From Hydrococcus rivularis NIES-593 (GTDB lineage: Bacteria; Cyanobacteriota; Cyanobacteriia; Cyanobacteriales; Microcystaceae): a DNA stretch of 64,000 nucleotides. The stretch spans positions 124,001 through 188,000 of the forward strand of contig NZ_MRCB01000001.1 in assembly GCF_001904635.1 (NCBI RefSeq). Direction: 5' to 3'. The notes under the pieces were generated by a model. The model was not told where the DNA came from. It saw only the letters and a list, made by a program, of their open reading frames with translations, and made no database searches. The position numbers and the translations under genes are program-made. Shown here in pieces: positions 32,997 to 50,064 of the stretch; within the stretch, counting starts at the first letter, position 1; each line of letters opens with the position of its first letter.

Positions 32997-33030
32997 GATA
33001 GATTTCCAATGACTTTTGTGACGTTATCTA

Positions 33031-33070
33031 TTATTAATTTTGGCTGCTGCAAATGAAATTTGGGTGAAAT
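33031..33070 (-). promoter_or_regulatory. ATTTCA direct-repeat operator and -10, upstream of DUF2808 copy 1
   Basis: On the minus strand ATTTCA-CCCAA-ATTTCA (half-sites 33070-33065 and 33059-33054) is followed 17 bp later by TAATAA (33036-33031) as a -10. The 18-base core is identical to the rppA copy at 33204, facing the other way. Confidence 0.75.
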
Positions 33071-33203
33071 TTCTCTAAAAGACACAAAACTCATCTATTG
33101 GTTCTACTAATCTTGATTATTGATATTCTTAATACAAAGTTATCTTTGTATCCGAAGCTACTTATTTGTTTTGATTTTTCAGAAATTTATTGAACTGGCT
33201 AAA

Positions 33204-33242
33204 ATTTCACCCAAATTTCATCTCACTTTGTCATGCTATATA
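33204..33242 (+). promoter_or_regulatory. ATTTCA direct-repeat operator and -10, upstream of rppA
   Basis: ATTTCA-CCCAA-ATTTCA (half-sites 33204 and 33215), then TTGTCAT and TATATA at 33237-33242, 16 bp after the second half-site. It is 93 bp upstream of the rppA ATG and implies autoregulation. Confidence 0.75.
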
Positions 33243-33334
33243 AGATGTCACTTCATCTACCAAAATTACTTTGGTAATCAAATAGCATAATGGAGTAATT
33301 AAATTAACCAATTATTAAAGTAAATTTACTGTTT

Positions 33335-34072
33335 ATGAAAGTTTTGCTAGTTGAAGATGAGCCAGATTTGGGTGCATCGATTCAGCGAAAGTTGAGTAAA
33401 GAAAGATATATTGTTGACTGGGTTTTGGATGGAAATGAAGCCTGGACTTATCTAGAACATGATTGGACTCAATATACACTGGCAATTTTTGATTGGTTGT
33501 TACCGGGAATGTCAGGCATAGAACTATGTAAGCGATTACGGGATCGGGGTGATGCTTTACCCGTGCTGATGCTAACTGCTAAAGATAGCATGGCAGATAA
33601 GGTAGCAGGACTAGATGCAGGGGCAGATGATTATTTGATCAAGCCGTTTGGCATGGCAGAACTACTGGCACGGTTGCGTGCCTTGCAACGGCGAGCTTCT
33701 TTTGGAGGCGCATCGCTTACGTCTCAGTTCCAGCCTTTACAATTGCAAGTTGGTGGACTTATCCTGGACTGCGGTAATTGTACAGTTTCTCGACAGTACC
33801 CGAATGGTGAAAATAAGGTAATTTATTTAACAAAAAAAGAGTTTCAATTATTAGAATACTTGATGAAACGTCCTAATACAGTTATTACCCGCGACCAAAT
33901 TTTAAATCATCTGTACGCCTTTAGTGCAGAGCGTGTTAGTAATGTAGTAGCAGCTCAAATCCGACTTTTGCGTCGCAAATTATCGGAATATGGTTGTGAT
34001 GGGCTAATCGAAACTGTTCCTAGTATGGGCTATCGTTTCAATCCTGGCAATGCAGATTCGACTATTTCGTAA
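33335..34072 (+). CDS. rppA: OmpR-family response regulator, RppA/NrsR-like
   Basis: 245 residues: a receiver domain (acidic pocket LVEDEPD; phospho-acceptor Asp53 in IFDWLLPG; Lys in LIKPFGMAE) and a winged-helix DNA-binding domain (LTKKEFQLLEYLMKRPN; SNVVAAQIRLLRRKL; ETVPSMGYRF). It resembles Synechocystis RppA/NrsR, which with RppB/NrsS controls nickel-responsive export genes and is also linked to redox regulation. Its 3' end overlaps the kinase gene by 23 bp, so the two are cotranscribed. The repeat at 33204 lies in its own promoter. Confidence 0.92.
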   Translation: MKVLLVEDEPDLGASIQRKLSKERYIVDWVLDGNEAWTYLEHDWTQYTLAIFDWLLPGMSGIELCKRLRDRGDALPVLMLTAKDSMADKVAGLDAGADDYLIKPFGMAELLARLRALQRRASFGGASLTSQFQPLQLQVGGLILDCGNCTVSRQYPNGENKVIYLTKKEFQLLEYLMKRPNTVITRDQILNHLYAFSAERVSNVVAAQIRLLRRKLSEYGCDGLIETVPSMGYRFNPGNADSTIS

Positions 34073-35450: not shown

Positions 35451-35512
35451 CGATTCCAGGGCGTAGCGCTTCGCTATCGCGCAAGCAATTGAGAATTGAA
35501 TACTCTCCTAAA

Positions 35513-35540
35513 AAATATAGTATAAAAAAATACTGTATTT
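35513..35540. promoter_or_regulatory. AT-rich inverted repeat between rppB and mntH-like gene
   Basis: Arms AAATATAGTAT and ATACTGTATTT (one mismatch) around AAAAAA. In the 225-bp spacer it could be an operator for the Nramp gene 135 bp downstream or a weak terminator for rppAB. A separate GC-rich palindromic repeat lies just after the rppB stop (about 35460-35485). Confidence 0.35.
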
Positions 35541-35675
35541 ATAAGTGGTAAGACAAGGTTTTTACTTTTGAAATCTTGAGGAGATTAATATTCATGCCAG
35601 ATTTTTTCAAATAATGAGAAGAATATGAAAAAATAAATTATGAAAAGAATATGAGAATATTTTATAGCAAAGTAA

Positions 35676-37004
35676 ATGACTCCTCCAGAAAACAGACCTA
35701 GTTTACCAGAGGTTCACCGTAGTATTAGAGTCCCCAACAGCAACAGCTTTTGGCGCAAGATGCTGGCTTATGCAGGGCCAGGGTATTTGGTTTCAGTCGG
35801 ATACATGGACCCTGGCAACTGGGCAACAGACATTGCTGGAGGGTCAAAGTTCGGGTACACGTTGTTAACAGTAATCCTGCTGTCCAACCTGATGGCGATA
35901 TTGCTGCAATCTCTATGTGTGCGTTTGGGAGTTGCTACAGGGCGAGATTTGGCGCAGGCTTGTCGAGATTATTTCAAACCAAGGGTAAGCTTTTGTTTAT
36001 GGGTACTGTGTGAGATTGCGATCGCTGCTTGTGACTTAGCGGAACTATTGGGAAGTGCGATCGCACTGCAACTTCTATTTGGGATTCCGTTAGTGTGGGG
36101 TGTTTGCATCACAGCACTTGATGTCCTGGTGTTGTTATTCCTGCAACACAAAGGCTTTCGCTATACAGAAGCTTTGGTAATAATGCTAGTAGCAACTGTA
36201 GGCATCTGTTTTACAGCAGAAATTCTGTTCTCTCGACCTGATGTGGGGGGAATTTTATTGGGATATCTACCTAAAAAAGAAATTTTACAAAACCCAGAGA
36301 TGCTATACATTGCCATTGGCATTTTAGGGGCAACAGTGATGCCTCACAATTTGTATTTACACTCCTCTATTGTGCAAACCCGTGATTGGCAACCTAGTAC
36401 TGAAAAAAGATGGGAAGCGATTAAGTTCGGCACAATTGATTCAACTTTTGCTTTGTCATTAGCACTATTCATCAACTCAGCGATTTTAATTGTGTCTGCT
36501 GCAACATTTCATTTTTCTGGTAATCAGAATGTGGCAGAAATTCAAGATGCTTATAAATTACTTTCACCACTGTTAGGAGTCAGTACTGCTAGTGCTATTT
36601 TTGGCATTGCATTACTTGCTTCTGGGCAAAGTTCAACGTTGACTGCGACTCTAGCAGGACAAATTGTTATGGAAGGCTTTTTGCAATTTTGCCTTCCGTC
36701 GTGGTTACGCCGTTTAATAACCCGTCTGCTTGCCATCATTCCAGCGTTAATTACAATCATTCTGTTTGGTGAAAATAGTACAAGCAGCCTCATAGTTCTC
36801 AGTCAAGTCATCCTCAGTTTACAGTTACCGTTTGCAGTAATTCCCTTGGTGATGTTTACAAGTAATCGCCGCTTGATGGGTGAGTTTGTTAATCCCGTGT
36901 GGTTAAAATCTTTAGCTTGGTTAGTCGCTATTGTTATTGTTGGCTTAAATGCTTGGTTGCTATTACAAAGTCTTTGGGGATGGTTATCACAAGTTCCCAG
37001 TTAA
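35676..37004 (+). CDS. mntH: Nramp-family divalent metal (Mn2+) transporter
   Basis: 442 residues, about eleven helices. The TM1 metal-site motif is VGYMDPGNWATDIAGG (DPGN) and the TM6 motif is ATVMPHNLYLHSSIVQTR (MPH). Both are the canonical Mn2+/Fe2+ ligand set, so it is a true proton-coupled importer rather than an Mg or inactive relative. It lies 225 bp after rppB in the same direction. An importer among exporters fits replacement of Mn or Fe during metal stress, but this is inference. Confidence 0.93.
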   Translation: MTPPENRPSLPEVHRSIRVPNSNSFWRKMLAYAGPGYLVSVGYMDPGNWATDIAGGSKFGYTLLTVILLSNLMAILLQSLCVRLGVATGRDLAQACRDYFKPRVSFCLWVLCEIAIAACDLAELLGSAIALQLLFGIPLVWGVCITALDVLVLLFLQHKGFRYTEALVIMLVATVGICFTAEILFSRPDVGGILLGYLPKKEILQNPEMLYIAIGILGATVMPHNLYLHSSIVQTRDWQPSTEKRWEAIKFGTIDSTFALSLALFINSAILIVSAATFHFSGNQNVAEIQDAYKLLSPLLGVSTASAIFGIALLASGQSSTLTATLAGQIVMEGFLQFCLPSWLRRLITRLLAIIPALITIILFGENSTSSLIVLSQVILSLQLPFAVIPLVMFTSNRRLMGEFVNPVWLKSLAWLVAIVIVGLNAWLLLQSLWGWLSQVPS

Positions 37005-37064
37005 AATAAAGGAACAGATCCGTGGCAATCCAATGTCATGCTGCAAGAATGAAGGGGTAAAGCC

Positions 37065-37742
37065 ATGAAATATATCAAGCGAACAATAGCCATTCTGGGA
37101 ATAATGAGTTTACTGGGTGTAATGCCTGCTGCTGTTTCTGCGCGAGAAGCACAAATACCTTTGAAGGCGACGAACTTCCAAGAGTACTATAACCAAGGAG
37201 TGCAAAAGCTTGAGCAAGGCAACTTCAATGGTGCGATCGCAGATTTTAACTCTGTAGTACAGCTGAATCCAAAATTTTACGAGGGTTTTTGCCTTCGAGG
37301 TTTAGCTAAATCTCAATTGAGAGACTTTAATGCTGCAATTTCTGACTTTAACTTAGCATTGCGGTTAAATCCCAAGCATACAGATGCTTATAATGGTCGG
37401 GGAATTTCTTATGTAGAACTAGGAGATTTTCAGAAAGCAATTGCCGACTTTAACCAGACAGTGAAAATTGATCCAAACTCACAAGATGGTTATTACAATC
37501 TAGGAATGGCCCATTTTAGACAGGGAAATCATCAGCAAGCGATCGCAGATTTTAATCAAGCACTACAAATCAATCCCAATCTAGCTGATGCCTATGGCAA
37601 CCGAGGACTGGCACAATATGCTTTAGGAGACAGTAAGAGTGCTGTTACAGACCTTCAGCAAGCTGCAAAACTGTTTCTTAAACAAGGCGATACCCAAGCT
37701 TATCAACAAACACAAACTCTGATTCAGCAAGTTCAGCGTTAG
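37065..37742 (+). CDS. secreted TPR-repeat protein
   Basis: 225 residues, signal peptide to about VSA. Four or five tetratricopeptide units follow (for example AIADFNSVVQLNPKFYEGFC; AISDFNLALRLNPKHTDAYN; AIADFNQALQINPNLADAYG). TPR solenoids bind partner proteins; the periplasmic partner is unknown. It starts 60 bp after mntH and could share its transcript. A hairpin terminator follows. Confidence 0.85.
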   Translation: MKYIKRTIAILGIMSLLGVMPAAVSAREAQIPLKATNFQEYYNQGVQKLEQGNFNGAIADFNSVVQLNPKFYEGFCLRGLAKSQLRDFNAAISDFNLALRLNPKHTDAYNGRGISYVELGDFQKAIADFNQTVKIDPNSQDGYYNLGMAHFRQGNHQQAIADFNQALQINPNLADAYGNRGLAQYALGDSKSAVTDLQQAAKLFLKQGDTQAYQQTQTLIQQVQR

Positions 37743-37776
37743 TAATTTGTTTAGGGTAATGATATAAGTGTTAATA

Positions 37777-37802
37777 AACCCGGTTTCCTTGCGAATCGGG
37801 TT
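37777..37802. terminator. bidirectional hairpin terminator
   Basis: AACCCG and CGGGTT arms with a 14-nt spacer, followed by AAAAATTT, lie between the convergent TPR and acyltransferase genes. It resembles the AACCCGGTT-type terminators common in cyanobacteria. Confidence 0.6.
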
Positions 37803-37852
37803 CGTAAAAATTTAAATGCACACAATGATTTAGATTTCTGTGAGTAACAAGA

Positions 37853-38995
37853 TTATTTTTTGAGTTTCATCCCAAATAAAATTCGTGTCAGATTGAATCG
37901 TTTTATCAAAAAATGGTAAGCCACAAGAATACTAATACTTGAAGTCAGAAGAATACACAGAAACTTCAGCATCAGTGCAGTCTTCCATTGCACAATATAG
38001 AAGCCTATAGGTACAATAAATGTCATATGTATAATATAAATTGGATATGAAGCTTGATTTAAATATGCAAGGAATAAATGATTCCTGTTTAAGTATTTTT
38101 TTGCAAAATTTAAAATCACAATAACCCAACATAAAGTATTTAAACTAAGCAATAATTGATCCAGTATACTTCTAAATGAAAATCCCCATATTAAAGGAAA
38201 AAAATCATTTTTTGAATAGAGATAAAATAATGTGATTGTTAGAGCTAAAATTAATGAAGTTGAATTATTTTTATCAATAGCTTTTTGAAATTCTTGATCT
38301 AGGGGATATAAATATCCAAGTAAAAAATATATGATAAAGTAGACAGGATTATAATATGCTATTACTGTCATCCTAGCTAAAGCTAAAGGAACTACACATA
38401 AAAAAATTATTATAGGATTCTGAGCTAAATATTTAGCTGAATTGCTAATAAACTGTTGCTTATCTCTTATTTGTAAGTATTTGAAAATGGGTAAAGTGAT
38501 CAAAGAAAAACAAAATAAGTATAGAACAAACCATAAATGTGCAGGTGAAAAACCTCCTGTAAATATTGTAATGTTTTTATGACTAAAATTAAAGAAAGAA
38601 GGATAATATTCATAATAAAATAAATCAATATTTTTGTTATGACTAATAAACCCAAAGTAGCTAATAGGTGGAATGAGAAATAACACTCCAAAAATAAGTG
38701 GTATCAACAGTTTTTTAAACCTTTCTAAACAATATTGTTTTTGTGTTCTATTGTCTAAAGAATACTTTGCTGCTGCTCCAGCAATAAAAAAGAAAAGAGG
38801 CATAAACCACAGGTCTACAAAACTAACAAAGAGATTAAGTACAGGAGAAATAATATCATTCTGAACAAAATAACAACCAAAGCGAGGACAGTTAAAAATT
38901 CGAGCAGTATGGTAAGGAATCAGCAGGAGAGTCGCTAATATCCTCAAGGAATCTAAATCGTAACGCCTGACTGAATTTTCTTTAAGAGCGGACAC
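37853..38995 (-). CDS. acyltransferase 3 family membrane protein
   Basis: 380 residues, about ten helices. The start YDLDSLRILATLLLIPYHTARIF has the catalytic-type His of the acyltransferase 3 family (PF01757), followed by WFMPLFFFIAGAAA and later AHLWFVLYLFCFSL. These proteins O-acylate cell-surface glycans or lipids using acyl-CoA. The gene is very AT-rich even for this region and is transcribed against its neighbours, so it may be a separate acquisition. Confidence 0.82.
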   Translation of the reverse strand: MSALKENSVRRYDLDSLRILATLLLIPYHTARIFNCPRFGCYFVQNDIISPVLNLFVSFVDLWFMPLFFFIAGAAAKYSLDNRTQKQYCLERFKKLLIPLIFGVLFLIPPISYFGFISHNKNIDLFYYEYYPSFFNFSHKNITIFTGGFSPAHLWFVLYLFCFSLITLPIFKYLQIRDKQQFISNSAKYLAQNPIIIFLCVVPLALARMTVIAYYNPVYFIIYFLLGYLYPLDQEFQKAIDKNNSTSLILALTITLFYLYSKNDFFPLIWGFSFRSILDQLLLSLNTLCWVIVILNFAKKYLNRNHLFLAYLNQASYPIYIIHMTFIVPIGFYIVQWKTALMLKFLCILLTSSISILVAYHFLIKRFNLTRILFGMKLKK

Positions 38996-39095
38996 TAATT
39001 TTTTCCTTGTTTAGTTTCACATAAAGCATTTAAGTCTTGATGATATTGAGTGCAACAAAATCCTAGCTACACAACATCACAAATCTTCAACCTTG

Positions 39096-39134
39096 ATTTC
39101 ATCTTGATTTCATTTTCATTTGAGACATTAAATA
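39096..39134 (+). promoter_or_regulatory. ATTTCA direct-repeat operator and -10, upstream of RND copy 3
   Basis: ATTTCA-TCTTG-ATTTCA (half-sites 39096 and 39107) followed 16 bp later by TAAATA at 39129-39134. The RND ATG is 83 bp downstream. Confidence 0.75.
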
Positions 39135-39217
39135 CAGTGCCAGATTGTCATAATTACAGATTATTCCAGATGGATTAACTGTATCGTCAAGTAAAAAACC
39201 CTTGAGGGGTCTCAAAA

Positions 39218-42200
39218 ATGCTCAATACCATTGTCAAATGGTCGATCGCGCAACGGTGGCTAATCGTTATCATCTCTATATTAATTAGTCTGTGGGGACT
39301 TCACGTCCTCACGCGAATGCCGCTAGATGTATTTCCTGCCTTTGCTCCCCCGCAAGTGGAAGTTCAAGTCGAAGCTTCTGGTTTAGCACCAGAAGAAATC
39401 GAGTCTTTGGTCACTCGTCCGATTGAGAGCGCGGTTAACGGAACGCCTGGATTGGTATCGCTGCGGTCTTCATCTGCTATTGGAATTTCTGCTATTAAAG
39501 CTGTTTTTAGTTGGGACACTGACATTTACCGTGCGCGTCAACTGGTGACAGAGCGATTACAAGGGGCAAAGCTACCGCAAGGCGTAGGACAACCAGAAAT
39601 TCTGCCTGTCAATTCACCCTTGGGATGGGCTGTCAAATACGCTTTTGATGCTGAAAGCACTGACATGATGGAAGTGTGGCGCATTGTCAATTGGGATGTG
39701 AGAAATCGCTTGCTGGCTGTTCCTGGCGTGAGTAACGTATTTCTCTACGGTGGCGATGAGCGGCAATATCAAGTTTTGGTTGACCCAGAGAAGCTAAAAG
39801 CGTATGGTGTCTCCTTGCCAGAAGTTACTAAAGCAGTGCAGAATGCCAACGTCAACGTGCCGGGGGGATTTTTAATTACTCCTGACCAAGAAATGTTGAT
39901 TCGGGGAATTGGGCGCATTGAGTCAATTGATCAGCTGAAGCGTTCAGTCATAAAGGCGGTTCAGGGTACACCCGTATTACTTGAACAAGTAGCAGAGGTC
40001 AAAATTGGCCCAGCATTAAGACGAGGAGATGGACTATTTCAGGGCAAACGAGCAGTAATTTTAACTGTATCCAAGCAGCCTGCGGCAGATACTCCTACTG
40101 TTGTCAAAGCTGTGGAAGCAGCAATGGAGGAGATTAAGCCAGGATTACCGCAAGATGTCAAGGTTACTAAGACCTTTGACCAAAATTTATTCATTGAAGC
40201 TTCGGTCAAAAACGTTGAAGAAGCCCTGCGCGATGGCACTATTATCGTTTCAGTCATCCTGATTATCTTCTTGATGAACTGGCGCACGGTAATTATTAGC
40301 CTCAGTGCCTTGCCTCTGTCGCTACTGTTGGGGATGATTATTCTTAGCTGGACTGGACAGGGTATTAATACTATGACCTTGGGTGGACTAGTAGTTGCTA
40401 TTGGTTCTGTGGTGGATGATGCGATCGTTGATATGGAAAATGTCTACCGCCGTTTACGGGAAAACCAAATAGCAGGCAACCCGAAAAATCCTTTGCAGGT
40501 CGTGTTTGACGCTTCAGTGGAAGTGCGTGTCAGTGTATTATTTTCTACTGTCATTATTGCAGTGGTCTTTGCACCGATTTTCGTCCTGTCTGGGGTAGAA
40601 GGCCGCATTTTTACGCCGATGGGAATGGCATATTTACTATCGATTCTCGCTTCTACCTTAGTTGCATTGACACTGACTCCAGCCTTATGTGCTTTGTTAT
40701 TGGCAAATCGTCGTTTACCGAATACGGAAAGTTGGCTAGAGCGCAAAGCACATCAACTTTATAGTCCAGCACTAAATTTCTCAATTCGTCGTCCTCAGAT
40801 AATTTTGGGAGTTGCGCTTGCAGGCTTTGTGGCATCGATGATCATTCTACCGGGGTTAGGAAAAGTCTTCTTGCCAGAGTTCCAAGACCGCTCTTTGGTC
40901 AATTCAATAGTTCTTTTACCTGGTGAATCCTTAGATGCAACTGACCAAGCAGCTTTGGCAGTGATGGATGCCCTCAAAAACGATCGCCGCTTCGATGCCA
41001 TTGCGTTTCGCTCTGGATTTGCTCAAGGAGATCCGGAAGTAGCAGGAGTCAACTTTGGTGAGTTGGATGTGCAGATTAGCGAAACTGGAGCGAAAGATCG
41101 CCAGAAGACTGTTGAGGTACTCCGCAAAGAGTTTGAAAAACTTCCTGGTGTGGCGACTAATATAGGTGGATTTATTTCACACCGCATAGATGATATTCTT
41201 TCTGGGGTGAGGAGTGCGATCGCCGTCAAAATCTACGGCCCCGAACTCGAACAACTCCGCACCCTTGGGAAACAGGTACAAGTAGCTATGAGTGGTATTC
41301 CTGGCATTGTGGATCTGCAACTTGAACCCCAAGTTCCAGTCAAACAAATCCAAATTCAATTTGACCGCGATGCAGCCGCTCGTTATGGGTTAACTGTGGG
41401 AGAACTGGCAGAAACTATAGAGACTGGATTGAATGGAAAAGCAGTTTCTCAAGTATTGGAGAAGCAACAAACGTTTAATCTGGTTGTCTGGTTGCAAGAG
41501 CGCTCCCGTAACAATTTGGATGTGATTGGCAACTTGTTAGTCGATACACCCAACGGTCAGAAAATTCCCTTATCCCAGGTTGCTAAAGTTGATTATGGCA
41601 CAGGGCCAAGTACCATCAACCGCGAAAATGTTTCCCGGCTGATTGTGGTTTCTGCTAACGTTGCTGGACGAGATTTGGGTTCTGTAATTAAAGATGTACG
41701 CGATCGGGTTAAGCAAATTCAACTATCTGGAGGATACTATGTACAATTTGGCGGTCAGTTTCAAGCACAGGAGGAAGCAACACAGACATTAATTATTGCA
41801 GGTGCAGTTGCGATCGCAGTAATTTCCGTACTGATTTACTTTGCCATTAAATCAATTCCTGCCACTGTAATGATTATGGTTAACCTACCACTAGCATTAA
41901 TTGGTGGTGTAATCTCCGTCGCCTTGGGTGGTGGTATTATTTCCGTTGCTTCAATGGTTGGTTTTATCACTCTATTCGGTGTAGCTACTCGTAATGGATT
42001 GCTGTTAGTGGATAACTATAACAATCGCCTAGCTGTTCGCGAAGCGTCCCGTAGGGAAGGAATACCACTTAATGAAGTAATCGTTGAGGGTTCGATGGAA
42101 CGCCTGGTGGCAATTCTACTAACAGCCCTTGCATCAGCACTTGGTATGGTTCCCCTAGTAATTGGTTCTGGTGCAGGTAAAGAAATTCTACAGCCTTTAG

Positions 42201-42349
42201 CGGTGGTGGTGTTAGGAGGTTTGTTTACTTCCACTGCTTTGACATTGTTAGTTTTGCCAGCTTTGTATTCCCAATTCGGGAAGTTTTTGGTTCCGAAAAC
42301 TACTGCACCAGTACAAAATCCTGAAGTTACTCAAGGTTCAGTTGTATAA
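39218..42349 (+). CDS. heavy-metal RND efflux pump, copy 3
   Basis: 1,043 residues, closest to copy 2: same start (MLNTIVKWSIAQRWLIVI) and TM4 motif (VVAIGSVVDDAIVDMENVYRR). Near residue 940 it has seven extra residues (VREASRR) exactly where a dispersed repeat has entered the gene (42036-42060), while the frame stays open. GAGG precedes the ATG by about 10 nt. A His-rich lipoprotein gene follows, as after copy 2. No adaptor or outer-membrane channel gene is adjacent. Confidence 0.94.
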   Translation: MLNTIVKWSIAQRWLIVIISILISLWGLHVLTRMPLDVFPAFAPPQVEVQVEASGLAPEEIESLVTRPIESAVNGTPGLVSLRSSSAIGISAIKAVFSWDTDIYRARQLVTERLQGAKLPQGVGQPEILPVNSPLGWAVKYAFDAESTDMMEVWRIVNWDVRNRLLAVPGVSNVFLYGGDERQYQVLVDPEKLKAYGVSLPEVTKAVQNANVNVPGGFLITPDQEMLIRGIGRIESIDQLKRSVIKAVQGTPVLLEQVAEVKIGPALRRGDGLFQGKRAVILTVSKQPAADTPTVVKAVEAAMEEIKPGLPQDVKVTKTFDQNLFIEASVKNVEEALRDGTIIVSVILIIFLMNWRTVIISLSALPLSLLLGMIILSWTGQGINTMTLGGLVVAIGSVVDDAIVDMENVYRRLRENQIAGNPKNPLQVVFDASVEVRVSVLFSTVIIAVVFAPIFVLSGVEGRIFTPMGMAYLLSILASTLVALTLTPALCALLLANRRLPNTESWLERKAHQLYSPALNFSIRRPQIILGVALAGFVASMIILPGLGKVFLPEFQDRSLVNSIVLLPGESLDATDQAALAVMDALKNDRRFDAIAFRSGFAQGDPEVAGVNFGELDVQISETGAKDRQKTVEVLRKEFEKLPGVATNIGGFISHRIDDILSGVRSAIAVKIYGPELEQLRTLGKQVQVAMSGIPGIVDLQLEPQVPVKQIQIQFDRDAAARYGLTVGELAETIETGLNGKAVSQVLEKQQTFNLVVWLQERSRNNLDVIGNLLVDTPNGQKIPLSQVAKVDYGTGPSTINRENVSRLIVVSANVAGRDLGSVIKDVRDRVKQIQLSGGYYVQFGGQFQAQEEATQTLIIAGAVAIAVISVLIYFAIKSIPATVMIMVNLPLALIGGVISVALGGGIISVASMVGFITLFGVATRNGLLLVDNYNNRLAVREASRREGIPLNEVIVEGSMERLVAILLTALASALGMVPLVIGSGAGKEILQPLAVVVLGGLFTSTALTLLVLPALYSQFGKFLVPKTTAPVQNPEVTQGSVV
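42036..42060. repeat. dispersed repeat inserted inside RND copy 3
   Basis: TTCGCGAAGCGTCCCGTAGG (first 20 of 25 bases) matches 17979-18003 with two mismatches. The extra 21 bp (42035-42055) encode VREASRR, which is absent from copies 1 and 2. Confidence 0.8.
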
Positions 42350-42509
42350 AAATTTAAGTTTTTATTTGTTTTCTATCTTGCATCAGTTAATGAAGATTAT
42401 CAAATATCAAAGAGGGTAGCTGGAAAAGGGGTTTTCAAAAATAGGTGCAAGAACTAGGTCTACCCAAGTTTGTTTCAATTTTTAACTAATCCAGATGAGG
42501 AGTAAATCA

Positions 42510-43013
42510 ATGCAATCACTCAAACTAGGTTTTGTTATTTTAGCAAGTACAGGACTATTATTTTTAGGAGCTTGTGGTAATCAAGCATCTGAATCTAATA
42601 GTAATTCATCAGTACCAACCTCTGAAACCACAACTAAAATAGAACCTACAACTAAATCAGAAACCGCTGCCAAAACTGAGTCATCTGGTCATAGTAAAGC
42701 TAATCGCGGCGGTCAAGTTGTTGAGTCAGGTGCTTATCATTTAGAGTTTGTACCTGAGAAAGAAGATAATGGAACGCACATGGATTTCTACGTGCAGAAA
42801 GGCAATAATCACGAAGCAATACCTAACGCCAAAGTAACAGCTCAAGTTCAGATACCTGATGGTAGTCAGAAAACTCTAAATCTTACATACGATAAAGAAG
42901 GTAAACACTATACTGTTTTGCTACCAGAAAAAGCTTCTGGCCAGTATCAAGTGAAAATGCTTGTGGATGTTGATGGCAAAAAAGTAGACGGTCGTTTTAG
43001 TTTTAATAAGTAG
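42510..43013 (+). CDS. periplasmic lipoprotein, companion of RND copy 3
   Basis: 167 residues from the ATG at 42510, which has GAGGAG 7 nt upstream; an ATG at 42495 lacks one. Lipobox LFLGAC, a Ser/Thr/Lys linker with few His (SSGHSKANRGGQ), then the same beta domain as the product at 30338 (YHLEFVPEKEDNGTHMDFYV to GRFSFNK). It lies 160 bp after RND copy 3, mirroring the RND-lipoprotein order at 27183. It probably works in the periplasm with the pump; its metal affinity should be lower than that of its His-rich paralogue. Confidence 0.8.
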   Translation: MQSLKLGFVILASTGLLFLGACGNQASESNSNSSVPTSETTTKIEPTTKSETAAKTESSGHSKANRGGQVVESGAYHLEFVPEKEDNGTHMDFYVQKGNNHEAIPNAKVTAQVQIPDGSQKTLNLTYDKEGKHYTVLLPEKASGQYQVKMLVDVDGKKVDGRFSFNK

Positions 43014-43120
43014 ATTACCTGCAAGCAATTCTAAAAAAACAATCATTTCCTAGCAGCTTTTACTGTAATCTTTACAGTTTTGGGTTGGATTTACACCTCG
43101 CGGAAATTGATTGAGTTGGG

Positions 43121-43198
43121 ATGACTAAACTCTATGTTGCTTTAGTCTTGCTTGTACTAGGGGTAGAGATAGTTGGCTACTGCTGCTCTAATGAATAA
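43121..43198 (+). CDS. possible 25-residue membrane peptide, or remnant
   Basis: The 379-bp gap after the lipoprotein gene contains MTKLYVALVLLVLGVEIVGY plus CCSNE, a single hydrophobic segment with a Cys pair. Its ATG overlaps the TGA (ATGA) of a preceding open stretch (43035-43124) that reads NNHFLAAFTVIFTVLGWIY and then TSRKLIELG. That resembles a small CcmD-like helix but has no start codon. The pair may be a decayed small operon. Confidence 0.25.
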   Translation: MTKLYVALVLLVLGVEIVGYCCSNE

Positions 43199-43274
43199 TT
43201 CTACCACTTTTGGTAATTTACCTGATTATGAAATACTGGGCGATCGCCAAGAATAGTAAATAGTGTCGTGGTTG

Positions 43275-43291
43275 ATTTCATTCTGATTTCA
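43275..43291 (+). promoter_or_regulatory. ATTTCA direct-repeat operator, upstream of 43393 gene
   Basis: ATTTCA-TTCTG-ATTTCA (half-sites 43275 and 43286). The expected -10 position (43308) has only TTGTAG. The next ATG is 101 bp downstream. Confidence 0.65.
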
Positions 43292-43392
43292 TCTTTTCAA
43301 CCTAATGTTGTAGTTAGTGCAGTAGCTCTACTCTGCTTACTTTGTTTATCCCTTGTTCAACACTTAAAACGCACTAACTGGAAGCAAACTTT

Positions 43393-44322
43393 ATGAATCG
43401 TTTTGTTGCTGTATTAGTGAAATCCACTATAGGTATTGCTGTCCTTACAACCCTGCTCATAGCTCAAGGTTGCTCACCACGAGTAAAATCTCAGGAAGCT
43501 GCTGCTGATAAAGAAAAGCTTACTACAGCACAACCAATGGGTAGTATGGATCATCAGGAGCATGAGACAAGTAAATCAGAACATCAAAAGGGTGGCATAG
43601 ATCATTCAGAACATAGTGGTAATAAGGTAACTACTCAGGTAAAACTCACAACTCCAAAAGATATCAAGCCTAATACTACTGTGCCTTTGGTAATTAATGT
43701 GCAAGACAAAGATGGAAAAGCGATCGCCAATTTTGATACATTTCAAGAAAAACTGATGCACCTGATTGTGGTTAGTGATGACCTCCAGTTTTTCAACCAT
43801 ATTCATCCTATTTATAAAAACAATGGACGCTTTGAAGTCCAGGCTAATTTTCCTCAACCAGGTAGTTACACGCTTTTCAGTGATTACAAACCAACTGGAA
43901 ACACAGAACAAATCTCCGTACTCAAAACACAACTTCCGGGTAAAAGTCCATCCACACCACCAATTGACCTAAAACTAAATAAGACTTTTGGTGATATTAA
44001 GGCTAATCTCACCTTCTCTCAACCAACATTAAAAGTAGGTGAAGAAGTCACCTTGAGCTTCGATTTAAAACAAACGTCTAATAATCAACCGGTTCAAAAT
44101 TTACAACCATATCTGGGAGAATTAGGACATTTAGTAATTATCAAACAGTCATCACCATTGACAAGAGCCGATTATATTCATGCTCATGCGCTAAAAAACA
44201 CTCCATCTGGAAAGGTGAATTTTATGACGAACTTTCCGACTCCTGGTACATATAAAATGTGGGGTCAATTTAACCGCAATGGCAGAATTATTGTAGTTGA
44301 TTTCGGCGTAAATGTTCAATAA
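43393..44322 (+). CDS. His/Met-containing lipoprotein of unknown function
   Basis: 309 residues. Signal peptide with lipobox-like AQGCS, then a His-rich linker with some Met (MGSMDHQEHE; HQKGGIDHSEHSG). Two beta-sandwich domains of about 100 residues follow, with recurring His in FFNHIHPIYKNNGRF, GHLVII, YIHAHAL and the end KMWGQFNRNG. Proteins of this kind are often found next to heavy-metal efflux genes and are thought to hold Cu or other metals in the periplasm; no activity is known to me. An ATTTCA operator lies about 100 bp upstream. Confidence 0.7.
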   Translation: MNRFVAVLVKSTIGIAVLTTLLIAQGCSPRVKSQEAAADKEKLTTAQPMGSMDHQEHETSKSEHQKGGIDHSEHSGNKVTTQVKLTTPKDIKPNTTVPLVINVQDKDGKAIANFDTFQEKLMHLIVVSDDLQFFNHIHPIYKNNGRFEVQANFPQPGSYTLFSDYKPTGNTEQISVLKTQLPGKSPSTPPIDLKLNKTFGDIKANLTFSQPTLKVGEEVTLSFDLKQTSNNQPVQNLQPYLGELGHLVIIKQSSPLTRADYIHAHALKNTPSGKVNFMTNFPTPGTYKMWGQFNRNGRIIVVDFGVNVQ

Positions 44323-44332
44323 TTATGCTAAA

Positions 44333-44349
44333 TATTCATATAGATTTCA
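44333..44349 (+). promoter_or_regulatory. degenerate ATTTCA direct repeat
   Basis: TATTCA (44333) and ATTTCA (44344) at 11-bp phase, directly after the lipoprotein stop. It is weaker than the other copies, and no gene begins nearby other than the DUF2808 gene at 44713, which has its own better copy. Confidence 0.25.
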
Positions 44350-44404
44350 TCTCTTCCATTTATACTAATATTTAGCCGTTTAAACTTATGCTTTAATGCA
44401 GATT

Positions 44405-44446
44405 CAGGCTTTTTGGCTGTGCTGTCATGGTGCAAATAAAAGCCTG
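44405..44446 (+). terminator. possible terminator of the 43393 lipoprotein gene
   Basis: Arms CAGGCTTTT and AAAAGCCTG separated by 24 nt and followed by ATTTTTATT. The loop is long, so the assignment is tentative. Confidence 0.4.
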
Positions 44447-44609
44447 ATTTTTATTAAGAAATAAAAAAACTTTATATCCGAAAGCTAGTTTGTTTTTTAG
44501 TTGATTTTTCAGATTAAAATTATTGGATCTTTCGTTACTTCATCAAAGTTTTACTTTCGGACTGGCTACCTAACACAACATCAACAAATTATTTTTTGAA
44601 CCAGTCAAA

Positions 44610-44649
44610 ATTTCATCCTAATTTCATCCTGACCTGTCAGACTTATTAT
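44610..44649 (+). promoter_or_regulatory. ATTTCA direct-repeat operator and -10, upstream of DUF2808 copy 2
   Basis: ATTTCA-TCCTA-ATTTCA (half-sites 44610 and 44621), TGTCAG, then TATTAT at 44644-44649, 17 bp after the second half-site. Confidence 0.75.
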
Positions 44650-44712
44650 GTAAAGGTCTATTTAGTAGAAAATTGTAACTTATTTTACATAATGGCTGTT
44701 TCACAATTCAAG

Positions 44713-45177
44713 ATGAAGAAAATATGGATTTACACAGGTACAGTGTTTGCTCTTGGCACCATAGCTTTCATTTGCATGACCAAGGCAAATGCTAAGGAGA
44801 CTAATGTTGATAATAATTTGCAATATCCTACTAATAGCTGGCGTTTTGTAAAACATACTTTTCGGTTAAATATCCCCAAAAATAACAACGCTCTTTCTCA
44901 ACTTATTATTGAAACTCCATCTACTGTAGCAGTGAGTAATGATATTGATGTATTGGATGTGAATGATCAGAAAATTAATACTAATATTTCCGCCTATGGC
45001 AGACAAATTATTATAGAGTTCCCTGAAAAGGTTATTTCTAACACTAAGCTCTTAGTTAATTTTAATAAGGTTCAACAACCAGTTACAGGCCCGGATTCTG
45101 TATACCGCTTTTCAGTGAAAGTTGTTGGTAGTGAGGTAGAGATTCCCATTGGTTTAGCTAAATTCCCTACATTTTAA
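44713..45177 (+). CDS. secreted DUF2808 protein, copy 2
   Basis: 154 residues from the ATG at 44713 (MKKIWIY, like the MKKL starts of its paralogues). An ATG at 44692 is possible, and a TTG at 44596 lies before the operator and is rejected. Signal peptide to about ANAK. The DUF2808 core is recognisable (WRFVKHTFRLNIPKNNN; LIIETPSTVAVSND; FPEKVISNTKLLVNFNKV) but more diverged than in copies 1 and 3. Confidence 0.8.
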   Translation: MKKIWIYTGTVFALGTIAFICMTKANAKETNVDNNLQYPTNSWRFVKHTFRLNIPKNNNALSQLIIETPSTVAVSNDIDVLDVNDQKINTNISAYGRQIIIEFPEKVISNTKLLVNFNKVQQPVTGPDSVYRFSVKVVGSEVEIPIGLAKFPTF

Positions 45178-45203
45178 TATTTAGATTTTTATGTTAATCA
45201 AAA

Positions 45204-45220
45204 ATTTCATCCAGATTTCA
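45204..45220 (+). promoter_or_regulatory. ATTTCA direct-repeat operator, upstream of DUF2808 copy 3
   Basis: ATTTCA-TCCAG-ATTTCA (half-sites 45204 and 45215) followed by GACCTGCCAAAC, similar to GACCTGTCAGAC at the same place in the 44610 copy. The -10 match is weak (TGATCA, 45238). The gene begins 218 bp downstream, so a long leader or a second promoter is likely. Confidence 0.7.
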
Positions 45221-45438
45221 TTAAGACCTGCCAAACTTGATCAATAAAGGTAGTAGACCTTTTTGACTTAAAACAGTAAACGAGTTAATGAGAAGGCTTT
45301 TAACTTCTCTTAATTCTTGTGTGAATGTAGGAGATAGATAATTCTGTCTTTACCTAGTTGTTATGTATTAGTTGATAACGGCTTACTAAACACGAATCTG
45401 AATATTTGCTGATGTTACTGATTAAATTAGGAGTAAAT

Positions 45439-45927
45439 ATGAAAAAACTGCTAGCTTACATTGCTATATCTACTCTAGCTGCTGCATTTTTAATTCCTGC
45501 CAATTATGCAAGTGCCAATGAAGAAAATGATAGTCTTCCTCATGTTGAGGGTAACTATCAATTTCCTCCGACTCGCTGGGCGGTTGTTAGACATACTTTG
45601 CGAGTACACGTTCCTAAAAATAGCAAGGATGTTTCGCAGTTAAATATTGAAGTTCCAAGTACTGTAAGGTGGAGCAATGATATTAATGATGTTGTTGTAA
45701 AAAAAGAGAATAGTCAGAAAATTAATACTAATGTTTCTTTGAATGGTAAGACTATACTACTAGCTTTTGCTGAACCAGTTGCTCCTAACACTAAGCTAGA
45801 GATTGACATCAAGAATGTCAAACAACCATTTCTTGGTAACGGTCCTGTTTATTATTTATCTGCTAATCTCATTGGTAGTGATGCAAAAATACCTATAGGT
45901 GTAGCTAGATTTCGTATTAGTCCTTAA
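45439..45927 (+). CDS. secreted DUF2808 protein, copy 3
   Basis: 162 residues from the ATG at 45439 with AGGAG about 6 nt upstream. Signal peptide to about ASAN. Very similar to copy 1: HVEGNYQFPPTRWAVVRHTL, VHVPKNSKD, FAEPVAPNTKLEIDIKNVKQ, GNGPVYYLSANLIGSD. The function is unknown. A strong hairpin terminator follows 25 bp after the stop, so it is monocistronic. Confidence 0.85.
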   Translation: MKKLLAYIAISTLAAAFLIPANYASANEENDSLPHVEGNYQFPPTRWAVVRHTLRVHVPKNSKDVSQLNIEVPSTVRWSNDINDVVVKKENSQKINTNVSLNGKTILLAFAEPVAPNTKLEIDIKNVKQPFLGNGPVYYLSANLIGSDAKIPIGVARFRISP

Positions 45928-45951
45928 AATCTTTGCTATCCAAATAAAGCT

Positions 45952-45987
45952 CCTGATAGTTAACTGATTTTTGAGTTAACTATCAGG
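45952..45987 (+). terminator. intrinsic terminator after DUF2808 copy 3
   Basis: Perfect 14-bp stem CCTGATAGTTAACT / AGTTAACTATCAGG with an 8-nt loop, followed by ATAATTTTTAATT. Confidence 0.8.
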
Positions 45988-46095
45988 ATAATTTTTAATT
46001 GATTTTAAAATTTGAATATTTGATAGTTTAACCATAAATAATTTTGAGTAATTACGTTTAGCAACTACATTTTAAATTTCTCTTGGCATAACAAT

Positions 46096-46135
46096 ATTTC
46101 ATCTTTATTTCATCAATAGCTTTCATAATTATAAA
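46096..46135 (+). promoter_or_regulatory. ATTTCA direct-repeat operator and -10, upstream of DUF2808 copy 4
   Basis: ATTTCA-TCTTT-ATTTCA (half-sites 46096 and 46107) and TATAAA at 46130-46135, 17 bp after the second half-site. The ATG lies 145 bp beyond the -10. Confidence 0.7.
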
Positions 46136-46279
46136 TATATAGAATCCCATTTGATTGTTGAAAAGTCAACCTGACTGAAAGCCTGTCAAATAAGGTTTGG
46201 CTTCTCAGTATACATAGCAAGACTCAAGTTGGATTCCTATAGAGATATTTCATTGATTAACTAAATAAGGAGAATATCC

Positions 46280-46753
46280 ATGAAAAAGCTGATTTACACT
46301 GTTACTTTCACCTTATTTCTTGCATCTTCAGTTACTACTGCTTGGGCTAAAAATCCAAATGATGCTAAATTTTCTCATCTAGGCAATAGTGCTGCTGTTC
46401 CTAATATTGCCCGTATCCCAGATGCTACTCATAAATTTGATGTTCATGTCCAAGGTAAAGCACTTTCAGAATTGGCGATTGATTTACCAGAAGGAATAAG
46501 TATTAATAAAGGAATTGAAGTCCAAAACAAATTAGGTCAAAAAATTCCTACAACGGTTTCCATTAACAACAAAAAAGCTACTGTAGCTTTTTCGGAACCA
46601 ATAGTTCCTGGTACAACTATATCAATTCGTATGAAGGTAGTTAATACTCCAGATTATAAGGAAACTTGGCATTATCCCGTATCTGTCAAAAAGGTTGGTA
46701 TGAAAGAAGCAATTCCACTTGGTTTAGCTCGGATTCAGACTTACGGTGGCTAG
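46280..46753 (+). CDS. secreted DUF2808-like protein, copy 4
   Basis: 157 residues; AAGGAG precedes the ATG. Signal peptide to about AWAK. The most diverged of the four: HKFDVHVQGKALSELAIDLP, KIPTTVSINNKKATVAFSEP and IVPGTTISIRMKVVNTP align with the family, but the FPPTR box is missing. It is the last gene of the accessory block before the transposon remnant. Confidence 0.78.
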   Translation: MKKLIYTVTFTLFLASSVTTAWAKNPNDAKFSHLGNSAAVPNIARIPDATHKFDVHVQGKALSELAIDLPEGISINKGIEVQNKLGQKIPTTVSINNKKATVAFSEPIVPGTTISIRMKVVNTPDYKETWHYPVSVKKVGMKEAIPLGLARIQTYGG

Positions 46754-46863
46754 GGTGAGTAACTGCTGTTAATTTTGGGTGTGGCTGGCTGTCAACCAAA
46801 TTAATCGGTAGCTGTAGCGAACTGCAAACATAAACACTTCAAACTGCAAACAAGGCATTTTTG

Positions 46864-46979
46864 AAACCACAATAACTGCAAATAAAGGGGGTTTCAAAAC
46901 CAGATTATTTGCAAATGAAACCACATTCTCTGCAAACAAACCACATTCTCTGCAAATGAAACCACATTCTCTGCAAATA
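46864..46979. repeat. array of 20-21 bp direct repeats beside the recombinase gene
   Basis: Five copies of a 21-bp unit with consensus AAACCACATTCTCTGCAAAT(G) begin at 46864, 46897, 46918, 46938 and 46959. The last three are nearly identical and the first two diverged. Extra TGCAAAC pieces lie at about 46822 and 46843. There is no unique spacer sequence between the units. Such arrays are typical of transposase-binding sites at the ends of TniA/TnsB-type elements, or of plasmid iterons. Confidence 0.8.
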
Positions 46980-47146
46980 AGCCGTAACCCCTATGGGAAT
47001 TGAGATACAGGATTTATTGGCTCACAAGTGTCCAATTTATACGAACTTTTATACCGGACATATATGTACGTTTTTCGTGGTTTAATTTGAACTAATACCG
47101 TTCGATTAAATATCCCAAGCTGTTTAAACCGACAGCTAGTTTGGTC

Positions 47147-47896
47147 ATGGCCATTTATGCTTATCTGAGAGTCTCCAGCGACAAACAAGATGTACACAAC
47201 CAACGACATGGCATTTTAGAATATGCCAACATCCACGCTTTGAGTCCCATCCAGTTTATAGAGGACACAATTTCTGGACGGGAGAAATGGTTAGAGCGAG
47301 GTGTAGGACAACTACTGAATCAAACAGCACAAGAATCCGATGTAGTTATTTTTTCAGAAGTTAGTCGGATGGCACGCTCCACCCTACAAGTATTAGAAAT
47401 GCTGGAGTGTTGCGTGCGTCGGGGAATCAACGTCCATATCGCCAAACAAGGTATGGTACTGGATGACTCAATGCAAAGCCGAATTACAGCAACGGTTTTA
47501 GGCTTGGCAGCTGAAATCGAGCGGGAATTGATTGTACTCAGAACAACCGAAGCACTAGCTAAACGTAAAGCTGAAGGAAAAACGTTAGGGCGACCCAAAG
47601 GACGACAATCTGCACATTTGAAACTGGACACAAGGGAAGCAGAAATTCGCAGTTATTTAGCCAAAGGAATCAGCAAACGCTCAATTGCAAAACTGGTCGA
47701 TTGTTCACCTTCCACTCTCTACGATTGGTTGTCACGCAAACATCTCCACTCACGCCACGACAAAATCGTTATCTCAACAAATGGGGCTACGACCGCGATA
47801 CCCTTGTGCGACAACCGCCTGCTGTTCGCTTCCAGGCAGAATATAGCAATCAATGTTGGCATTTTGACCTCAGTCCATCAGACCTCAAGCAAGTGA
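47147..47896 (+). CDS. serine recombinase (resolvase/invertase family), 3' end fused out of frame to transposase remnant
   Basis: 249 residues from the ATG at 47147. The catalytic domain is complete: IYAYLRVSSDKQDVHNQRHG (Ser nucleophile of the YxRVSS motif), SEVSRMARSTLQVLEMLE and ATVLGLAAEIERELIVLRTTEAL. The helix-turn-helix GISKRSIAKLVDCSPSTLYDW binds DNA. After about residue 200 the sequence is a shifted reading of the transposase below and is probably not original. Enzymes of this type resolve transposition cointegrates or invert DNA. Confidence 0.82.
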   Translation: MAIYAYLRVSSDKQDVHNQRHGILEYANIHALSPIQFIEDTISGREKWLERGVGQLLNQTAQESDVVIFSEVSRMARSTLQVLEMLECCVRRGINVHIAKQGMVLDDSMQSRITATVLGLAAEIERELIVLRTTEALAKRKAEGKTLGRPKGRQSAHLKLDTREAEIRSYLAKGISKRSIAKLVDCSPSTLYDWLSRKHLHSRHDKIVISTNGATTAIPLCDNRLLFASRQNIAINVGILTSVHQTSSK

Positions 47897-48255
47897 AAGC
47901 ACCAGCCTTCCTAGAACCGGGGCGGGGGCATCCCTTGTTAATGCTTTATAGTGTCGTGGATGACCGGAGTGGTGTTGCATACCAAGAATACCACGGTGTT
48001 TACGGCGAGGATGTAGAAGCAGCACTGCGGTTTATGTTTGCTGCCATGTCACCCAAAAAAGAGACGGACTTTCCTTTTGAAGGCATTCCCCAAATGCTGT
48101 ATATGGACAATGGCCCCATTGCTAAGAGCTTAGTATTTCAAAAAGTTATGGGTTATTTGGGGATTGAAGTACGTACCCATTTACCGAATGGCAAGGATGG
48201 ACGACGGGTGACAGCTCGTTCTAAGGGGAAGGTAGAAAGACCGTACATTATTTGA
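47749..48255 (+). pseudogene. truncated DDE (integrase-core) transposase
   Basis: The frame overlaps the recombinase 3' end. It encodes the rve catalytic core with all three acidic residues in context: CWHFDLSPSD, MLYMDNGPIAKS and KGKVERP. The open frame stops three residues later, so the C-terminal DNA-binding half (probably more than 150 residues) is missing, and no independent N-terminal domain precedes it. It is a remnant unless completed elsewhere. It marks the junction with the core-gene half of the window. Confidence 0.8.
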
Positions 48256-48466
48256 GTAAAGGTTTACTATTGCCAACATGTATCGGGAGATGCAATAGGA
48301 GCTACCCCAGGGAAACAATTTTGCAAATTAGATTTTTGCTATTTTTTGAGATGTTTCTCAATTCAGGAACCAAGGCGTATAAAATAATCGATAAATCATA
48401 TAGAATAGAGCGGTCTTCGATTAGATTTCTAAAGAATTTGACGGCTCGCCATCATCGGAGATGTTT

Positions 48467-49135
48467 ATGCCACCCCGTTCAGACTCATTGACATCTGCTC
48501 TAGAAGCGATCGAGCAAGGACACTACACCGAAGCCGTTGAAGTGCTCGAAATGTATGAACAACTGATGTGTAATCCTCAATCCGAGCAGTACATACAAGT
48601 GCGAAAGGGGTTAATCGAAGCTTATCATCGTACTGGAAACCAAAAAAAAGCTTTCTGGCTTTGCCAACAATTGGTTGCCAATAAAGATCCAGAAGTTCAA
48701 ACCTGGGCGCAACAAATGCTAGACTCTATGAACCAGACAGAGAAAGCTGAAGAAACCAAGTCCTCAGAAGCACGGGCCGAAGAACCTACAGAGCTAGAAT
48801 CACCTCAGCCTTATTTAACCCCAGAACAGTCAGAAGAACTATTAGCCAATGGTACTAAAGCATTCAAAGGCGGACGCTATGTAGATGCAATTAGAGATCT
48901 CGAAGAATTTTATCGCGGCACTGATTCTAGTACCAAAAATTATTTTCTAGGACAGACTTATCTTGTTAAAGCTTATCAAGCAAGCAAACAAATAGAAGCT
49001 GCGATCGCCCTTGCTCAGAAAATGGCAGCAAGCGATAAGGAAATCATTCAGATTTGGGGAAAAAAATTTTTAGAATCGTCCTCCCCTCCACCAGCACCGG
49101 AAACTTCCGAATCGTCGAGCGAATCACTACAATAA
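48467..49135 (+). CDS. TPR-like helical repeat protein
   Basis: 222 residues from the ATG at 48467 (GGAG 6 nt upstream; an ATG at 48461 is also possible). Two similar helical halves (SALEAIEQGHYTEAVEVLEM; GTKAFKGGRYVDAIRDLEEF), each followed by YL/YHR-x-KKAF-type pairs, are separated by an acidic linker (EKAEETKSSEARAEEP). The C-terminus is Ser/Pro-rich. No signal peptide. It is a probable protein-binding scaffold of unknown role, and the first gene after the transposon remnant. Confidence 0.7.
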   Translation: MPPRSDSLTSALEAIEQGHYTEAVEVLEMYEQLMCNPQSEQYIQVRKGLIEAYHRTGNQKKAFWLCQQLVANKDPEVQTWAQQMLDSMNQTEKAEETKSSEARAEEPTELESPQPYLTPEQSEELLANGTKAFKGGRYVDAIRDLEEFYRGTDSSTKNYFLGQTYLVKAYQASKQIEAAIALAQKMAASDKEIIQIWGKKFLESSSPPPAPETSESSSESLQ

Positions 49136-49341
49136 AAGTCGCAACGGTCAGGGGAAATTGATACCCAAAGAAGAAAGAAGCGGGAATTAAAATCTCTTTA
49201 TTATTTATTTCACTCTACAGTCCATTTTCTCAGCTTAATATTTAATATAAGGGAAGCTGATTATCTTAACCCCTATCGGGCAGGCTCGCATTGCTAAACT
49301 CCCGATGTACTCGCTTACTTTTACCTAGTTTCAGTAGCGCT

Positions 49342-50064
49342 ATGAACCCCACCGATTATGCTGCTTTAATCCATCCCGCGATCGCGGTAGCGTTTGTCTT
49401 TCCCATTATCGGGATGGTTGTCAATTTTGCTTGGCAGACTCGTCAGCGACGGCTACAGTCTGTCGGGGAGGGAAAAAGCAAAATTCCCCCAATCGTCGGG
49501 CAAGAACACTTAAAACTGGGAAAATGGTTAACGGGTGCTGTTGTTGGGGTATGTCTGCTAGGAATGGCTTACCCGACATTTAGCAAGGCGATTGAAAATC
49601 AAGCCTTTACTAAGCAACCAGGAGAAATGGTTTTTCTCATCCTGATGTTTGCGGCAACGATCGCTTCTCTCGTCTTTTTATACAAAGCGCAGCCTAGACT
49701 CTGGCGAGCTATCTTTGCATTTCTTAGTAGCCTCGGCGTTTTAGTCATCGGCTTTCAGGATATTATCCTACGTCGAGAGGGTTTGGGCTGGATTTTCCGG
49801 CGGGATTACGAGTGGCAGTATTCCCATTTCTATTACGGCATCACCGTTACCCTACTGATGATTTTTTCCCTGGCGATCGTCAAAGAAATTTACCAAGATC
49901 GTTCAAATCGCTGGCGCTACATCCATATTTTTTTGAATTGCTTTGCCTTACTCCTGTTTATCGGGCAAGGCATGACGGGGACGCGAGATTTGCTAGAAAT
50001 TCCCTTGGGCTGGCAAGAAACCCATCTCTACAAGTGCGATTTCACAAATAAAATTTGTCCCTAG
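49342..50064 (+). CDS. DUF4079 integral membrane protein
   Basis: 240 residues from the ATG at 49342. About seven helices; His residues in ALIHPAIAVAFVFPIIG, EHLKLG, FYYG and YIHIFLNCFALLLF fit the cyanobacterial DUF4079 family, which resembles cytochrome b561-like proteins. Such His could bind haem, but that is inference. The function is unknown. Confidence 0.72.
   Translation: MNPTDYAALIHPAIAVAFVFPIIGMVVNFAWQTRQRRLQSVGEGKSKIPPIVGQEHLKLGKWLTGAVVGVCLLGMAYPTFSKAIENQAFTKQPGEMVFLILMFAATIASLVFLYKAQPRLWRAIFAFLSSLGVLVIGFQDIILRREGLGWIFRRDYEWQYSHFYYGITVTLLMIFSLAIVKEIYQDRSNRWRYIHIFLNCFALLLFIGQGMTGTRDLLEIPLGWQETHLYKCDFTNKICP

Follow-up and report, generated by a model that had tools for sequence, protein, structure and literature searches.

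Hydrococcus rivularis NIES-593 very probably carries a conjugative plasmid of about 240 kb integrated in its chromosome between ruvB and the genes for a TPR-repeat protein and a DUF4079 membrane protein, the plasmid circle having been opened inside an apparently dead transposon of the resolvase-DDE-AAA type. We are equally confident of the order of the parts, which runs from ruvB through an insertion sequence (IS), the right half of the transposon, the roughly 240 kb of plasmid and the left half of the transposon to the TPR gene, so that the IS is found at one seam only. The genome is a metaSPAdes assembly of 2x100 reads (PMC5334580) of 5.14 Mb in 67 contigs, and the window, the whole stretch of 64,000 nucleotides analysed here, corresponds to bases 124001-188000 of contig C1 (517 kb).

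The seam between the plasmid (transposon) and the chromosome lies at 48242..48243, as located by the empty site in a same-genus relative (G002) together with the flank on contig C2, and no IS is present there. The last base homologous to the transposon is 48242, the chromosome begins at 48243, and positions 48230-48470 are single-copy in the genome. An earlier note, made from the sequence alone, had described a sharp accessory/core junction with a change in composition, and the change is confirmed. The median GC3 of the ORFs in the window is 0.311 to the left of the seam (34 ORFs) and 0.501 to the right (12 ORFs; Mann-Whitney p = 3.9e-6), and across all sampled ORFs it is 0.322 in the plasmid (147) versus 0.459 in the chromosome (56; p = 3.4e-17). 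The total GC content is likewise lower in the plasmid parts (0.39-0.40) than in the chromosome parts (0.45-0.46). The junction is real and its precise position is 48242|48243, inside the interval that had been noted. The raw GC step is not sharp at this position: the 500-bp bins read 0.346, 0.396, 0.452 and 0.488 up to the seam and 0.408, 0.406 and 0.470 beyond it, a blurring that is due to the higher GC content of the transposon genes.

The chromosomal side of the seam can be read against G002, in which the site is empty and the genome is complete in one contig. In G002, DUF4079 follows directly after ruvB (ruvB-CGAC|GTGCATT-DUF4079), and the sequence across the site is GTTAGTCAAGAAATCTATATCTATATCGCGATCGAC-GTGCATTACGTGCATTATTTAAGTAAACC. 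In the genome under study, ruvB is located at the end of contig C2, and its identity as RuvB was confirmed both on C2 and in G002. The C2 sequence equals that of G002, plus one extra A, through GATCGAC and then switches to the end of an IS, and the window from 48243 reads GTACATTATTTGAGTAAAGG, starting with GTACATT. The first 20 bases (48243..48262, plus strand) represent the ruvB-DUF4079 intergenic region that continues the C2 flank; they match G002 at 16 of 20 positions, and there was no other such place in the 646,198 genome positions scanned. Since the C2 flank and the window from 48243 continue one another in G002, they were formerly neighbours, and the plasmid therefore very probably lies between them. 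G002 contains a 9-bp tandem repeat at the site, so that a loss of as many as 9 bp from the present genome is conceivable.

Next to the seam is the chromosomal gene for the TPR-repeat protein (48461..49135, plus strand), which has orthologues with 62-65% identity in the draft relatives G001 and G003 and is missing in G002. It is followed by the chromosomal DUF4079 membrane protein gene (49333..50064, plus strand; PF13301, 1.8e-48), which has 93% identity in G002. A search with the DUF4079 protein returned 25 loci, the nearest of which (86-87%) were from Hydrococcus sp. Prado102 and a bin labelled Gracilibacteria. In G001 and G003, the TPR gene is flanked by mutS2 (its identity confirmed) to the left and by DUF4079 to the right, and in G002 the gene order past DUF4079 differs. 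We considered mutS2 as the lost left neighbour and rejected it, as it is located elsewhere in both G002 and this genome and ruvB is the neighbour. The sequence from 48243 onward was also considered as an IS end, which it weakly resembles by eye (the one on C20), and rejected as being single-copy, chromosomal intergenic sequence; a search of it against plasmids gave no match.

On the plasmid side, the transposon starts at 46813 with the tip TGTAGCG, which is found again in its relatives. Its left terminal repeat (46813..47073, plus strand) is 98.9% identical over 264 bp to a repeat on contig C20, with the tip aligned, and an inverted copy of it ends the right half on C20; the intact relative L008 likewise has an inverted copy at its right end. 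The recombinase and the truncated transposase that the earlier note had placed at the change are both there. The former is a serine recombinase gene of the resolvase/invertase type (47147..47764, plus strand), identified by Pfam Resolvase (PF00239, 4.6e-29) and by alignment to L008, with its start at the ATG at 47147 according to the alignment to an annotated relative; against NF009949 it scored 193 bits, below the cut-off of 272. The latter is the middle part of a DDE transposase gene (47765..48242, plus strand; 94.6% to L008), cut by the seam; its likeness to the rve integrase core is weak, at 20 bits against a cut-off of 32.6. The nearest model to the DDE transposase is IS481, with 80.9 bits that fall far below the cut-off of 224, and no match was found among the sequences of solved structures. 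A 409-bp internal deletion at 47764..47765, where position 8956 of L008 joins 9366 and position 8952 of L011 joins 9362, takes the end of the recombinase and the start of the transposase. The final codons of the recombinase are missing through this deletion, and its ORF extends out of frame to 47896. Judged from its sequence, the transposon would be inactivated by the deletion and is a putatively dead element.

When 46500-48800 was searched against the whole genome, one further match came up, a terminal repeat on C20. The end of this contig carries the C-terminal part of the transposase, an AAA ATPase gene and the right terminal repeat. With L008 as the reference, the window holds transposon positions 1-1840 (minus the 409 bp) and C20 holds positions 1838-5437, minus a stretch that is an insert in L008, and the two halves abut with an overlap of 2-3 bases (L008 positions 1840 / 1838). 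The transposon is split at one point and not merely truncated. The remnant taken in the earlier note as the marker of the junction is thus present, but it is one half of a split element that does not owe its place at the boundary to transposition; the element is the opening point of the plasmid circle, which was probably opened at an IS inserted within the transposon.

The transposon type is defined by a recombinase, a DDE transposase and an AAA ATPase, and relatives with both ends are found on plasmids of Nostoc CENA543 and Gloeothece. The stretch 46754-48466 was covered to at least 80% in 8 of the 503 plasmid records with any match. In having a DDE transposase gene followed by an AAA ATPase gene, together with a serine recombinase gene, the element resembles Tn5053/Tn402 and the Tn7-like elements. 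The Tn5053/Tn402 family has TniA, TniB, TniQ and TniR together and produces a 5-bp target duplication. In contrast, the annotation tables of L008 and L010 show the recombinase, DDE and AAA genes only, with no TniQ annotated beside them, and a 5-bp duplication is absent from the outer flanks of C1/C20, L008 and L010. These flanks instead have TAG in common at a fixed distance, rather than five bases, a hint that the element prefers certain targets. Those of C1/C20 share GTAG with an offset of one base, a possible target duplication. The TAG-bearing flanks are at 46800-46813 in the window, at position 9251 of L003 (C20:56000-67398), and in L008 and L010. In L010 (8001-11761), from a linear plasmid of Gloeothece verrucosa, the same transposon type adjoins a gene annotated as protelomerase. 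In L003 (6440-9165), an IS4-family transposase gene interrupts a cysteine-synthase-like (PALP) plasmid gene; the right end of the transposon lies a few hundred bases away.

The other seam, at ruvB, was reconstructed from the contig ends. C20 ends with the same 55 bases, in reverse sense, with which C10 starts, and the 55 bases at the start of C14 are in reverse sense those at the end of C2. A single magnesium-type P-type ATPase gene is divided between C10 and C14; the break falls in the GDGINDAP motif, and the two parts overlap by GG. From 770 bases inward on C10 and 867 bases inward on C14, the sequences are contiguous in G002. This relative has its own deletion over the break and hence no empty site for the ATPase gene; there, the same gene is broken by a deletion into the next ATPase gene (L150/L153, G002:C1:4028028-4031274). 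As C10 and C14 flank one IS copy, C2 and C20 are left as the flanks of a second copy, and one IS end adjoins ruvB (C2) and the other the right half of the transposon (C20). C2 and C20 would then flank the same copy, in the layout ruvB-CGAC-IS-CCCTTTCGG-transposon right half. No contig spans C2-IS-C20 or C20-C1, and the right seam is spanned by C1. With the opposite pairing, too, the plasmid would continue into contigs of the chromosome.

The body of the IS is absent from the assembly, and the printed copies in other genomes are short remnants. Either IS end was matched in 7 of 388 genomes of the order, this genome included, and neither the IS ends nor the tail of a reading frame found at one of them had a match when plasmids were searched. 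This tail is the terminal part of a frame carried on the left end of the IS, and it may be TnpB-like. With its 30 residues, it is a weak query that matched no model in NCBIfam or Pfam; it had matches in 4 of the 6 genomes searched, one of which is its source. The ends suggest that the IS is of the IS607 type, as they share with this family the GG/CC flanks, the 2-base overlap and the lack of obvious terminal inverted repeats. Elements of the IS607 family are described as inserting at GG, with the exchange taking place across two bases that are identical (PMC6188088; PMC4058570). Insertion at GG with a 2-base overlap fits the ATPase copy and nine of the ten left ends, but not the C2 seam. CC adjoins the left end in nine of the ten copies examined (C14 here and eight in other genomes; one further left-end match was left out), and the sole exception is AC at the C2 seam. 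The case also differs from the IS607 family in that a whole plasmid, rather than the IS alone, is joined at one end.

That the sequence between the two transposon halves, window positions 1-48242 included, is a conjugative plasmid of the Nostocales type is indicated by its alignment to plasmid3 of Aulosira laxa NIES-50 (AP018310.1, 216 kb), to complementary parts of which C1:3-85 kb and C20:1-59 kb align. The identity is mostly 92-97% in the backbone, with some parts at 80-90%, and is lower in the cargo (pieces shorter than 300 bp were left out, and C1:60001-64000 was not covered). The plasmid3 stretches at about 0-24 kb and 180-206 kb are without a counterpart in the aligned sequence. The reference, which is collinear with both contigs, is typed as conjugative in PLSDB, and its kin are plasmids of Trichormus, Tolypothrix, Microchaete, Scytonema and Nostoc; of the 48 plasmid records that matched an 8-kb piece of the backbone, 10 covered at least 80% of it. 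ParA, ParB, a relaxase and an FtsK-type ATPase were found on the plasmid parts, and three further backbone proteins had no match in Pfam. The start of C20 and the start of C1 face each other on the reference across 2.1 kb, an interval that holds an annotated reverse transcriptase; the assembly was presumably interrupted here by a group II intron present in several copies. C20:1 would thereby be joined to C1:1 via a missing element of about 2.1 kb, and the plasmid would total approximately 172 + 67 + 2 kb, or about 240 kb.

Two traits of an integrated conjugative plasmid are present: the partition and transfer genes, and chromosomal flanks (ruvB on C2 and the sequence from 48243 onward) that are contiguous in G002. 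Plasmid3 and its kin have the same backbone, but they are separate circular or otherwise extrachromosomal records, whereas the backbone here is very probably in the chromosome. As far as can be read from its genes, this looks like a conjugative plasmid that integrated naturally in a cyanobacterium and has kept its genes for partition and the relaxase. An integrated plasmid was one of three options in the earlier note, and it is the one upheld, in the form of the conjugative plasmid of about 240 kb. The option of a plasmid with a piece of chromosome on it is rejected to the extent of the tests made, as the two flanks are chromosomal and were formerly neighbours, and an assembly join is contradicted by the uninterrupted same-genus site, according to which 48243 continues the ruvB flank that ends C2.

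A single conservative exchange at one IS end accounts for every base, and it is a quite possible route of integration, to which we would give somewhat less than even chances, lowered by the TnpB-like tail being recognised by no library. An IS607-type IS, with a serine transposase that cuts and rejoins over GG, would have inserted at a GG in the transposase gene of the transposon. The IS transposase would then have exchanged the left end of the IS with AC/GT, a dinucleotide that matches poorly, in the interval from ruvB to TPR, and this one exchange between circle and chromosome would integrate the whole circle, with an IS at one seam and no base lost. Starting from GAAAGA[CC]-IS-[CC]CTTTCGG in the plasmid and GATCG[AC]GTACATT in the chromosome, the exchange would yield GATCG[AC]-IS-[CC]CTTTCGG and GAAAGA[CC]GTACATT, which are the observed sequences. 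In an alternative order, the IS would enter the chromosome first and its right end would recombine with the GG of the plasmid, giving the same product. The chromosomal dinucleotide is AC rather than CC, and whichever IS607 version is assumed, one of the exchanges must have departed from the GG rule. With 2-base overhangs, a serine-recombinase exchange would leave both seams mismatched, and the observed pair would represent the inheritance of one daughter strand. We tentatively suggest that a single end of an IS607-type element can act as an attachment site, where the serine transposase joins a circular conjugative plasmid to a nearly random chromosomal dinucleotide in an ICE-like manner. If so, no homology, no duplication and no second IS copy may be needed, and the seam dinucleotides would be a frozen strand signature of the exchange.

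The main rival to the one-end route is that the same integrated plasmid arose by homologous recombination between the IS in the transposon and an IS in the chromosome, followed by a clean loss of the IS at the window seam. Recombination between IS copies is the textbook integration route, this genome has at least two copies of the IS, and identical bases would result. We nevertheless consider it rather unlikely, since the IS must first have inserted once more, at the AC of the chromosome, though 9/10 other flanks are CC, and must later have been excised exactly, which makes more steps for the same product. An IS at both seams, as in integration between two copies, was not found: there is none at 48242|48243, where the sequence is unique and chromosomal. 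It is improbable that the broken ends of the plasmid and the chromosome were ligated by break repair without any transposase. The seam can indeed be read with one or two common bases on both sides (GAC/GACC), but no base was lost from the plasmid, nor from the chromosome save for the question of the 9-bp repeat, and the plasmid break falls exactly at the IS end.

An assembly artefact, in which a free plasmid and the chromosome were falsely joined at a repeat, would agree with the contigs breaking at this IS with 55-base overlaps, and with the likely source assembly having been made in metagenome mode and scaffolded (PMC5334580). It is very improbable, given that there is no repeat at the seam, that the seam resumes the chromosomal flank at the very base where C2 leaves it, in contradiction of such a join by the empty site in G002, and that a false join must trim two IS ends at their exact borders. 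Least credible, despite the recombinase and transposase fragment at the boundary, is that the metal genes were brought as an island by transposition, as they lie outside the left end of the transposon, which points toward the core genes and has its other half a few kb from the plasmid parAB, as the plasmid backbone runs on to the start of C1, and as the whole-genome search found no copy of the transposon end besides C20.

The integrated plasmid resembles Hfr-type and other integrated conjugative plasmids in that partition and transfer genes have come to lie in the chromosome through mobile DNA. The textbook Hfr-type cases have an IS copy at both seams; here, in contrast, the IS is at one seam only, and the Hfr-like state is a putative one. 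IS-mediated plasmid integration is already known, and the one-sided IS geometry is the unusual part. Among the literature matches listed, to the extent that their text was available, there was no report of a one-ended IS607 plasmid integration or of an integrated conjugative plasmid in a cyanobacterium, which is no proof of absence. In other bacteria, one paper describes IncHI2 in Salmonella as an example of a chromosomally integrated conjugative plasmid (PMC9019673).

An Hfr-like state could move chromosomal genes between species, and through the integration a large load of metal resistance becomes fixed in the chromosome. The one-sided geometry of the IS points to a way in which plasmids may integrate without homology or two IS copies. 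The case also illustrates that an integration can be separated from a false join in a draft assembly by pairing contig ends by the k-mers that they share, by a split transposon and by the empty site in a relative.

The plasmid cargo in the window (1..46812) contains genes for heavy-metal efflux and related functions. The plasmid-type character that the earlier note had ascribed to the metal genes left of the seam agrees with the similar metal genes on Nostocales plasmids and with the plasmid backbone upstream of the window cargo (C1:3-85 kb). Among these genes are an RND pump at 39218-42349 (Pfam ACR_tran, 4.6e-285, 39218-42346) and three DUF2808 genes at 44596-46753, identified with Pfam, the one at 44596 being slightly below the cut-off. 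Together with 32511-32996, there are four copies of such paralogous DUF2808-type genes among the metal genes in the plasmid region. Elsewhere on the plasmid part of C1, L069 (9834-15903) contains a Tn7-like module in which TnsA is identified by Pfam and another protein has the C-terminus of a Mu-type transposase, along with two further genes that we presume to be TnsC and TniQ/TnsD. Finally, L006 on C1 (4947-12695) encodes a plasmid protein of 2583 residues with no Pfam match, the DNA of which is 89-97% conserved on ten Nostocales plasmids.
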